From IMG/VR virus record IMGVR_UViG_3300008113_000425, positions 1 to 28,669 of that record: DNA of 28,669 nt; one strand, 5' to 3'. Positions 7,508 through 27,764 of this stretch are shown here, piece by piece. The number at the start of each line of letters is the position of its first letter. Positions within the stretch are counted from its first letter, which is position 1. The notes under the pieces were generated by a model. It was not told the DNA's origin. It saw nothing but the letters and a program-made list of their open reading frames with translations, and searched no databases. A program made the translations under genes and the position numbers. The DNA comes from a virus.

Positions 7508-8476
7508 ATGTCAATTAAAAGAACACTTAAAGAAAAATTCGGTTACGATGTATCTGGATTAGCAGCATGGAAAGATAACAACCTTCCAAACATTACACCA
7601 GATTTAATTTCAACTTCTAGATTCTTAGAAAAATTAATGTTAGAAGAAGGTGTTAAAGGATCTCGTGAAATCGCTTTATTATCTTCATCTGTAGCGTTAC
7701 AGGCAAAGGCAGCTTGTACACCTTCACCTGATGGGTCTGTAGTTTTCACTGAGAAAGTTTTAACAACTAAACCTTTGTATATGGGTGTTGAGTTTTGTAA
7801 CGAAACTTTAAACACTAAAATGACTCAAGTATTGAATGCTTTAGGGATGAAAAACCAAGAAGGTCAATTACCTGCACCACTTGAAACTATCCTTATGGCT
7901 TACTTAACTAAACAATTACAGAAAAAAGCTGAGCGTTTAGTATGGTTAGGTGATACAGCGTCTTTAGATACTGAATTAGTACACTTTGACGGTTTAGTAA
8001 AAACTTTAAAAGCAGATACAGCTGTATTAAAAACTACTACTACTTTCGCTACTATTACAACTTCTAACGGTTATGATGCAGCTTATGAGGTTTTCACTAA
8101 GATACCTGCAGAGATTTTCGACAACCAAATGGAAGTTGCGTTGTATACAGGACGTACTGAGGCTTTGGCTATCATTTCAGACTGGAATGCTTCAAACGCT
8201 TACGATCGTATTCAATACACTTCAGAGGGTGGTTCTATTCGTTTCATTTTGCCACAAACTAACGTAGAAGTAATCACAGTACCTGCATTAGATGGTCAAA
8301 ACGAAATTTTTGCAATCCCTACAGCATTAGTATTTTTAGGTGTTGATGCACGTGAGGATGAAAATTTTGATATTAAATACGATGCTTACAACGAAAAATT
8401 GAAAGTTGATACTTCTTTCAGATTAGGTGTACAGTATGTATTCCCTCAATACTTTGTAAGAGTTAAAAGAGCTTAA
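7508..8476 (+). CDS. Major capsid protein
   Basis: A 322-residue protein with the features of the major capsid protein of Bacteroidota tailed phages. It has an N-terminal helical arm, a central domain with KKAERLVWLGDTAS, a Thr-rich loop region (residues about 165-180), an EVALYTGRTEALAI segment, and a closing LDGQNEIFAIPTALVFLGVD followed by FRLGVQYVFPQYFVRVK. I infer an HK97-like fold from order and length. It follows the protease and scaffold candidates and is followed directly by a terminator, consistent with high expression. Codons are strongly A/T-ending, with TTA and GTA common. Confidence 0.82.
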   Translation: MSIKRTLKEKFGYDVSGLAAWKDNNLPNITPDLISTSRFLEKLMLEEGVKGSREIALLSSSVALQAKAACTPSPDGSVVFTEKVLTTKPLYMGVEFCNETLNTKMTQVLNALGMKNQEGQLPAPLETILMAYLTKQLQKKAERLVWLGDTASLDTELVHFDGLVKTLKADTAVLKTTTTFATITTSNGYDAAYEVFTKIPAEIFDNQMEVALYTGRTEALAIISDWNASNAYDRIQYTSEGGSIRFILPQTNVEVITVPALDGQNEIFAIPTALVFLGVDAREDENFDIKYDAYNEKLKVDTSFRLGVQYVFPQYFVRVKRA

Positions 8477-26103: not shown

Positions 26104-26109
26104 TTACTA

Positions 26110-26199
26110 CTAACGGTTGGGTATATGTGAAGTACCTAACAACAGAACTTTAAAATTTAGTATAAACTTTACAAGGTATTTCACATATACCTTGTTATA
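26110..26199. repeat. attC-like inverted repeat 1
   Basis: CTAAC (26110-26114), spacer, then GGTATATGTGAAGTACC (26120-26136), a 38-base loop, GGTATTTCACATATACC (26175-26191, one G-T pair), TT, then GTTATA (26194-26199). The 17-bp arms, with AAC outside on the left and GTT outside on the right, have the R-L-loop-L-R order of attC sites, though not the strict RYYYAAC/GTTRRRY consensus. Confidence 0.6.
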
Positions 26200-26211
26200 A
26201 ACTGTAAAATT

Positions 26212-26358
26212 ATGAATTGGATAGAAAATTTAAAAGAACCTATTACGAAATTGGATATTTTGTATAGTGTGTGTGGATATTTAATCTACAAATGGGGTAT
26301 TATTTTTTGGGAAATAGGCAAAAAGATGTATAAAAATATCAGAGAAGATAAACGGTAA
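26212..26358 (+). CDS. Small gene in cassette-like position, 48 aa
   Basis: An ATG at 26212, 12 bases after GTTATA of element 1, gives MNWIENLKEPITKLDILYSV, a semi-hydrophobic, aromatic segment (GYLIYKWGIIFWEIG) and a basic end (KMYKNIREDKR). It stops 13 bases before TATAAC of element 2. It is probably membrane-associated. Its exact fit between two elements is how an integron-type cassette would look. Not recognised. Confidence 0.45.
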   Translation: MNWIENLKEPITKLDILYSVCGYLIYKWGIIFWEIGKKMYKNIREDKR

Positions 26359-26371
26359 TAATTTTATTGTT

Positions 26372-26694
26372 TATAACGGACAGCGATAGGCGATGTAAAA
26401 AGAAAACACTAATAAAAACTAAAGACGAAAAGATGATAACAATAAGTTGTAAAAATGGAAGAATTTTCACAGGTATAAATGAAGATTTTTTAGATGCAGA
26501 AACTAAATTACAAATTGCATATTATAAAGCACAAGGATGTGTTATTGAAACTATTGAAAGTTTTAGATTTAATGGCGAATGTGATTGTGAACATTGTGAA
26601 AGTTTAGAACACGAATTTGAAGATTTGATAGAACAGATTATAGACGAAGCGAACTCTTAAAGTTTTCTTTTTATATTGCCTATCGTGTGTTATA
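26372..26694. repeat. attC-like inverted repeat 2 enclosing a gene
   Basis: TATAAC (26372-26377), a 6-base spacer, CGATAGGC (26384-26391), then a whole gene, then GCCTATCG (26678-26685), spacer TGT and GTTATA (26689-26694). Both arm pairs are perfect. The order is the same as element 1, but with a gene in the loop. Confidence 0.6.
26433..26660 (+). CDS. Small acidic protein with CDCEHCE motif, 75 aa
   Basis: I start at the ATG at 26433; the TTG at 26367 would run through the left arm of element 2. MITISCKNGRIFTGINEDFL, then AETKLQIAYYKAQGCVIETI, then FNGECDCEHCESLEHEFEDL. The Cys cluster near residues 50-56 suggests metal binding; the last 20 residues are acidic and helical. The gene lies inside the arms of inverted repeat 2. 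Not recognised. Confidence 0.5.
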   Translation: MITISCKNGRIFTGINEDFLDAETKLQIAYYKAQGCVIETIESFRFNGECDCEHCESLEHEFEDLIEQIIDEANS

Positions 26695-26730
26695 AGTAAG
26701 CGATAGCGACCCGATAGGGTTACTTATAAC
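26689..26730. repeat. Perfect palindrome between elements 2 and 3
   Basis: GTTATAAGTAA (26689-26699) and TTACTTATAAC (26720-26730), perfect 11 bp, with a 20-base loop that contains CGATAG twice (26701 and 26712). The outer ends are the right GTTATA of element 2 and the left TATAAC of element 3, so neighbouring elements are joined back to back. Confidence 0.65.
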
Positions 26731-26908
26731 GTTCCTCGTGTATGCGTAGGGCGAATTATTAACTATAAAATTAATTAGAATGACAGATAGAATATTGAAA
26801 ATTTTAGACAATGTAAGATATTGGGAAACTTGCCCAGAAGATTATAAGAAGGATATAGAAACTTTCTTAGAAGCACAAAGCCAAGCCTTACGCATACACG
26901 ATGTTGTA
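26725..26908. repeat. attC-like inverted repeat 3 reaching into a gene
   Basis: TATAAC (26725-26730), a 6-base spacer, CGTGTATGCGTAGGGC (26737-26752), then GCCTTACGCATACACG (26885-26900), AT, GTTGTA (26903-26908). The 16-bp arms have one G-T pair; the outer boxes pair with one G-T. The right arm is inside the ORF at 26780. Confidence 0.6.
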
Positions 26909-27025
26909 GGGCAAAGCGAACTGTTGAATGCTTTTCTTGACTATTCGGATAAAATTTATTGGGCTGAGAATGACGTTACGGATAGAAGAGAAGTTATTGA
27001 ACAGTTTTTAAAAAGCATTCAATAG
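26780..27025 (+). CDS. Small protein with inverted-repeat arm inside it, 81 aa
   Basis: MTDRILKILDNVRYWETCPE, helical, then a stretch coded by the right arm of element 3 (ALRIHDVVGQ, residues about 36-45), then ELLNAFLDYSDKIYW and REVIEQFLKSIQ. The arm-coded part adds about ten residues without breaking the frame. The last part is itself flanked by inverted repeat 4. It may be a normal small helical protein into which the element was inserted or drifted. Not recognised. Confidence 0.5.
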   Translation: MTDRILKILDNVRYWETCPEDYKKDIETFLEAQSQALRIHDVVGQSELLNAFLDYSDKIYWAENDVTDRREVIEQFLKSIQ

Positions 27026-27033
27026 CCTACAAC
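26903..27033. repeat. Inverted repeat 4
   Basis: Outer GTTGTAGG (26903-26910) and CCTACAAC (27026-27033), inner TTGAATGCTTTT (26924-26935) and AAAAGCATTCAA (27011-27022), all perfect. The outer left box is shared with the right end of element 3. The polarity of the outer GTT/AAC is opposite to elements 1-3. Confidence 0.6.
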
Positions 27034-27041
27034 ACAAAGAT

Positions 27042-27063
27042 AAGAGCCGTTTTAATGGCTTTT
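27042..27063 (+). terminator. Weak terminator-like hairpin
   Basis: AAGAGCC (27042-27048), loop GTTTTAAT, GGCTTTT (27057-27063) with one G-T. Short, with few T after; it could end the cassette-like transcript. Confidence 0.45.
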
Positions 27064-27081
27064 ATCAACTGTTAGGAGTAG

Positions 27082-27181
27082 TTAAATAAGTAATAAGGGA
27101 GCGAGGCAGTGAGTTTTAAACAGGTGGCGTTGTGTACAAACGAAAGTTAATGACTGCATTCTACTACCTACCCTTATTTAA
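27082..27181. other. Gene-free stretch with long-range complementarity
   Basis: No ORF is seen between 27026 and 27194. AATAAGGG (27092-27099) pairs with CCCTTATT (27171-27178), and GCAGT (27106-27110) with ACTGC (27153-27157). TTAAATAAG (27082-27090) with CTTATTTAA (27173-27181) is an alternative to the first. The loop holds a near-palindrome around TTGTGTACAA. It may be a structured RNA or another element of the inverted-repeat series; no promoter match is seen. Confidence 0.4.
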
Positions 27182-27194
27182 TTAAATTTAAAGA

Positions 27195-27694: not shown

Positions 27695-27704
27695 AATAAA
27701 TTAC

Positions 27705-27712
27705 TATATTTG
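27705..27712 (+). promoter_or_regulatory. Promoter -7 box (TATATTTG)
   Basis: TATATTTG at 27705-27712, an exact consensus, preceded by the A/T-rich AAATAAATTAC. No clear TTTG at the -33 distance. It would start transcription near 27719, at the hairpin that follows. Confidence 0.55.
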
Positions 27713-27714
27713 TG

Positions 27715-27748
27715 AAAGGGTAGTCGGCCAAGCGAGGCGTTGCCCTTT
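27715..27748 (+). promoter_or_regulatory. Leader hairpin at transcription start
   Basis: AAAGGG (27715-27720) and CCCTTT (27743-27748) with inner GCC/GGC (27727-27729 and 27736-27738), then one T and a C. It shares AGCGAGGC (27731-27738) with the gene-free stretch (27100-27107). Because it begins at about the transcription start it could protect the RNA end or attenuate transcription. Confidence 0.4.
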
Positions 27749-27764
27749 TCTAATTTAAATCTAT

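Follow-up and report, generated by a model that had tools for sequence, protein, structure and literature searches.

Positions 26114-27032 of the virus record analyzed here very probably hold a run of three mobile cassettes, belonging to an integron-like system of Bacteroidota phages in which a phage tyrosine recombinase would be supplied in trans. The window, i.e., the whole stretch of DNA that was analyzed, is a virus record of 28,669 bases. It encodes a portal, a tape-measure protein, an exonuclease, an SSB-like DUF3127 protein and a small terminase. Comparisons at the sequence level demonstrate that the region is built of cassettes, that exchange takes place within AAC, that sites occur empty and with swapped content, that hairpin arrays are linked to a recombinase and an attI-like site, and that structure is conserved above sequence. 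An earlier note on this DNA had proposed an integron-type cassette series in a phage, and comparisons with homologous phages and with hairpin arrays support that proposal. Viruses appear to run a gene-swapping system that has so far been known mainly from bacteria.

Cassettes of the window and their boundaries

We scanned the window for hairpins of the design AAC-spacer-stem-loop-stem-spacer-GTT. Only three strong ones were found on the + strand, all within the studied region; the scan placed E1 at 26111-26197, E2 at 26374-26692 and E4 at 26727-26906. In 30 Markov shuffles the mean was 0.13 when loops of up to 400 were allowed, and no hairpin was found when the limit was 80. A short hairpin at 27030-27078 is the fourth (E5). 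With these four sites from our own scan, a phage genome and no integrase, the window has the composition of a phage CALIN (at least two attC). A search of Rfam gave no match. The earlier note had described a series of four elements ending at 27033. Its first three are real and correspond to E1, E2 and E4, but its fourth (GTTGTAG..CTACAAC, 26903-27033) runs in the opposite direction and is no site of its own, being the complementary end boxes of the third cassette; the next real hairpin, E5, extends beyond the interval 26110-27033.

Judging from its boxes and from related phages, region 26114-27032 is a set of three cassettes inserted within one TAAC. At the left junction, CTACTAA|C (26107-26114, + strand), phage DNA runs through AA and cassette 1 starts from C; up to this point the sequence is common to L022, which has an empty site, and L005, which has other cassettes. 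All three cassettes and their features are on the + strand. Cassette 1 (26114-26376) consists of E1 (26111-26200; 19-bp stem, 36-nt loop), box GTTATAAAC (26194), an ORF of 48 aa (26212-26358) and the complementary box GTTTATAA (26369-26376), and its box pair is complementary at 9/9 places. E1 scored 87 bits with covariance model R1, in which E1 itself is included, and the hairpin region of this cassette is 94% identical to an element of L145 that precedes the recombinase there by 1.0 kb on its upstream side. In cassette 2 (26377-26729), the attC-like arms of E2 (26374-26696; 25 to 29 bp) surround a gene of 75 aa that lies entirely in the loop (26433-26660, beginning with ATG; TTG at 26367 is a possible alternative start), followed by box GTTATAAG (26689) and the complementary box CTTATAA (26723-26729). 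The 11-bp palindrome GTTATAAGTAA/TTACTTATAAC (26689-26730), which had been read as built from end boxes, is real and corresponds to both end boxes of this cassette. Cassette 3 (26730-27032) contains E4 (26727-26910; 17-bp stem, loop of 132), box GTTGTAGG (26903), an 81-aa ORF (26780-27025) that starts in the E4 loop and passes through its right arm, and the complementary box CCTACAA (27026-27032). The arms of E4 are 94-96% identical to those of an element in recombinase contig L104/L191. The ORFs of the three cassettes matched no known family; that of cassette 3 has relatives in L002-L004. To the right follows E5 (+ strand, CAAC ACAAA GATAAGAGCC..GGCTTTTATC AACT GTTAGGAG), a resident attC-like hairpin and the target of the insertion. 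Two more imperfect inverted repeats, GGGAGCGAGGCAG-like and AAGCGAGGCGTTGCCC-like, were observed 5' of small genes outside the cassette region (27079-27184 and 27703-27750).

The boundaries follow a simple logic: each hairpin is followed by a box (GTTANNNN) whose reverse complement (N'N'N'N'TAAC) ends the same cassette. The window pairs are GTTATAAAC/GTTTATAAC, GTTATAAG/CTTATAAC and GTTGTAGG/CCTACAAC, which sets the unit limits given above. Matched boxes were found in 40/61 site pairs of a first set, and exact 4-base matches in 98 of 123 neighboring site pairs of related loci (shuffle mean 6.1, maximum 14), the rate being lower for gaps over 700 bases, where a site was probably missed.

Related phages were located via the SSB-like gene and compared by BLAST, which revealed a single hypervariable interval among the relatives of the window. 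L022 represents the empty site: window base 26114 is joined directly to 27031 (TTACTCCTAA|CACAAAGATAAGAG), and boxes CTCCTAAC and GTTAGGAG form a perfect pair around E5. L005 carries a different, 879-bp insert at identical points, between flanks that are 96.7% and 95.3% identical to the window, and this insert encodes a Mom-family DNA modification protein (PF25680, L005 2148-2837). Still other sequence occupies the interval in L009, L010, L013, L014 and L019. In L022, E5 has no cassettes next to it; in L005, L013, L014 and L019 other cassettes lie to its left, and the right boundary is again AA|CACAAAGATAAGAG. A T/C difference at the right junction places the exchange within AAC, the complement of the GTT at which integrons exchange, and no target-site duplication was seen when empty and filled sites were compared. 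Thus, the region is not carried unchanged by homologous phages, as would be expected of an immobile one, but is gained, lost and swapped exactly at the boxes. The expected break at G/TT of GTTATA was right as to the complement; the break itself, as read from these junctions, lies at AA|C (which is complementary to G|TT) of the left TAAC box, and the hairpin therefore belongs to the gene after it. We had considered that a start codon in the hairpin means a gene broken at every exchange, an idea that was dropped because attI places the crossover at the left box. Homologous recombination between repeats was also rejected, as neighboring hairpins are alike only in their boxes and general design.

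Hairpin arrays and a linked phage recombinase

Outside the window, the exact E1 pattern was found in 25 viral contigs of IMG/VR, and these hold arrays of hairpins with other stems; E1 DNA had no match among GenBank phages and plasmids. A recombinase (PF00589) was detected in 7/34 array records. Alignment A1 of the array-linked recombinases matched about 75 viral contigs and only 3 convincing genome contigs, one of which is a prophage-like region of Polaribacter; arrays with a recombinase are known from metagenomic contigs. The covariance search proposed in the earlier note found many copies elsewhere, with R1 hits in 44/46 array or recombinase records, although the design assumptions behind the model and the scan are also those of the elements counted. 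T4-type portal genes were present in 13/44 recombinase records, suggesting that many are large tailed phages; the others are fragments.

Around 76 recombinase loci, every hairpin (217/217) lay on the recombinase strand, and 214 were upstream of the recombinase (in 399 kb) versus 3 downstream (in 527 kb). A conserved TAACTATTATATAT directly before the recombinase ORF closes the array, and in 48/76 loci a conserved TAACTATNATATAT lies directly 5' of the recombinase, with a junction that is variable on the cassette side. By its position and by the turnover next to it, this is an attI-like site beside the recombinase gene, as in integrons. In five pairs of loci (L160/L162, L162/L163, L103/L136, L160/L164 and L163/L164), attI and the recombinase start were ~100% identical and identity fell to random level just upstream of TAA; loci with identical attI and recombinase carry unrelated last cassettes, the identity extending from the C of TAACTATTATATAT into the start of the recombinase. 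The end boxes of the cassette adjoining attI were complementary in 25/31. The 75 non-redundant cassette proteins hit six Pfam families, mainly DNA methylases, and nearly all others are unknown. One contig of 62 kb (G010, the contig of L094) had 24 hairpins across ~39 kb and no recombinase detected; these are either a very large array or several arrays.

The earlier note was correct that the boxes of the window differ from the attC consensus and that no integrase is present, as tblastn found no recombinase in the window; the cognate recombinase, however, exists in other phages. Since the window lacks this gene while near copies of E1 and E4 occur in recombinase-bearing arrays, its cassettes were probably gained in trans. 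The link between window and recombinase is one of site type, not one in cis.

Structure of the sites and of the recombinase

Among 200 distinct hairpins, boxes and spacers were fixed (4-5 and 1-2 bases) and the stem varied with compensatory changes, with a stem covariation score of 0.611 versus 0.166 in shuffles and 98.1% of cells paired. One stem place, a T 15 nt before GTT, forms a G.T pair in 192/200, whereas G.T occurs at most other places in 0-2%. In integrons, strand choice is set by extrahelical bases on the bottom strand; in the present hairpins this pair, which is C.A when the other strand folds, makes the stem asymmetric at a constant position, and no bulge was seen. E1, E2 and E4 all have it (26132/26179, 26395/26674 and 26749/26888, respectively), and hence the inner arms of none of them match perfectly, although the earlier note had called its second element (E2) perfect. 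The sites agree with the description of attC as imperfect palindromes with RYYYAAC/GTTRRRY boxes whose structure, not sequence, is conserved: GTT is invariable, GTTA almost so, and the remainder varies yet is complementary within a cassette. The strict RRRY letters are often not followed, e.g., in GTTATAA and GTTATGT.

Loop lengths fall into two groups, around 30 and around 70 bases. Of the 119 cassettes that have a forward ORF, 52 have its start within the hairpin, as in cassette 3, and complete gene-in-loop cassettes like cassette 2 recur in recombinase loci, although a few long-loop hits among these are two adjacent hairpins with similar stems. The longest ORF was on the recombinase strand, reading towards attI and the recombinase, in 119/124 cassettes with an ORF, instead of reading away from attI under a common promoter Pc as in integrons.

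Several features of the loops were also observed. Those at L103 2205-2331 and 2596-2722 and at L144 ~7727-7900 have tRNA-like T-arm sequences (GGTTCGATTCC, GGTTCGACTCCC); ARAGORN called no tRNA gene in the L103 loops. Small units without a gene, in which complementary boxes flank a loop like CGTTTTAATG (just before attI in L128, L139, L144 and L183, in E5, and at L016 3880-3990) look like mini-cassettes or terminators. Hairpin-encoded N-terminal peptides of ~25 aa, often ending ..LHISDV.., recur before different proteins (L104 4160, L086 4838, L107 9917).

The array-linked tyrosine recombinase (~267 aa) has all six catalytic residues in alignment A1. Among solved structures, its AlphaFold model (mean pLDDT 84, pTM 0.64) is closest in fold to integron integrase 2a3v. 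Its match to TIGR02249 was split and reached 154.7 bits versus a cut-off of 265, and its alignment with IntI has a gap of ~45 residues. The distance from the Lys-loop to HxLRH is 58-65 in 55 recombinases versus 106 in IntI1, and the I2 insertion of the IntI family was missing in 55/55. According to PMC7790495, cassette capture requires the I2 helix within that insertion, a helix known from IntI only; it is regarded as the invention that enabled single-strand cassette recombination and as absent from every other protein. A recombinase without an insertion held necessary for capture speaks against an integron-like reading. Either these recombinases recognize the hairpin by some other means, or their substrates are double-stranded sites. 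The covariation seen in stems of free sequence argues for the first possibility, although it is not proof.

Proposed mechanism, alternatives and known systems

Each cassette has the form (+ strand) C-hairpin-GTTNNNNN-gene-N'N'N'N'NAA. In a putative circular intermediate, the ring would join its two complementary boxes and thereby re-form a full hairpin site. The phage-encoded tyrosine recombinase, as the presumed catalyst, would exchange strands at AA|C between the hairpin, probably folded from a single strand, and a second site, either the attI-like sequence (TAACTATTATATATAA) that adjoins the recombinase gene or a further hairpin, e.g., E5. The cassettes of the window were probably inserted by a recombinase acting in trans, e.g., from a co-infecting large phage, and would now serve as small accessory genes of the window phage. 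It also seems rather probable that this is a separate phage-borne class of integron, which uses single-stranded hairpins without the I2 helix and reads the fixed C.A/G.T instead, has genes directed towards attI or inside the attC loop, and has large Bacteroidota phages as its platform and small phages as users in trans.

The main competing idea is that these are ordinary integron cassettes, a phage attC cluster without integrase that a canonical IntI of the host moves, the phage recombinase being a bystander. Such clusters have been published, including that of the cultured Polaribacter phage P12002L, one site of which (attC2) recombined with attI1 under IntI1 (PMC9892861). P12002L (NC_028924) carries hairpins of the present family with matched end boxes, one of them at 38035-38089; attC2 may be among these hairpins. 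The window has no recombinase. However, we consider this explanation unlikely, as hairpins are tied in strand and position to the phage recombinase and the last cassette turns over right beside it. Moreover, hairpins are rare in hosts (6/201 Flavobacteriaceae genomes, with one or two weak hits each), and the exact E1 pattern was absent from 84,980 species genomes.

The location of hairpins just 5' of genes, the 52/119 ORF starts within them, and a + strand that folds with G.U and not with a true mismatch would also suit leader RNA elements (regulators or processing sites), with gene content varying by ordinary phage mosaicism. This would leave unexplained the end-box complementarity across whole cassettes, the exact empty site and the linkage to attI and recombinase, and with the absence of an Rfam match it is very improbable. 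Outer inverted boxes around a gene, as in E2, resemble terminal repeats, but miniature transposons with such repeats or hairpin-guided HUH (IS200/IS605-like) elements are scarcely credible given the absence of target-site duplication, the strict same orientation within arrays and the linked tyrosine recombinase.

If the integron-like reading is correct, part of the unknown small phage genes, among them DNA modification genes (Mom, DNA methylases), could come from this system, through which unrelated phages would share such genes. In addition, a recombinase family without I2 beside hundreds of hairpin sites makes the claim that I2 is necessary directly testable.

With Xer-type recombinases and the integrases of temperate flavophages, e.g., that of Cellulophaga phage Ingeline (38.8% identical), the phage recombinase shares fold and length and is nearest in the tree, where the placement of such long branches is unsure; with a single IntI on a long branch (IntI1 alone came from plasmid sampling), the family could not be placed. 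A Persicobacter plasmid recombinase and that of Ingeline were examined as platforms and rejected, as no array lies beside either. With phage CALINs, the window shares an attC cluster in a phage with no integrase in sight; the paper describing them knew no cognate phage platform and used heterologous IntI1 (PMC9892861). Searches of open-access journal papers turned up phage CALINs but no comparable phage-borne platform. The likeness to integrons, including sedentary chromosomal ones with conserved attC, e.g., of Vibrio, comprises arrays of one-gene cassettes that all point the same way, palindromic attC whose boxes are G|TTR, end boxes complementary within a cassette, an attI-like site adjoining a tyrosine recombinase, structure conserved above sequence, and perhaps a fixed asymmetry in the stem. 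In contrast to integrons, the recombinase is ~267 aa long, lacks the I2 insertion and falls short of the TIGR02249 cut-off, and its sites have a G.T at a fixed place (C.A on the other strand), not a demonstrated extrahelical base. Viewed in integron orientation, the cassette genes occupy the opposite strand and point towards attI. Each hairpin precedes its own gene (on the 5' side), which may start in or fill the loop, and the present system is carried by phages.
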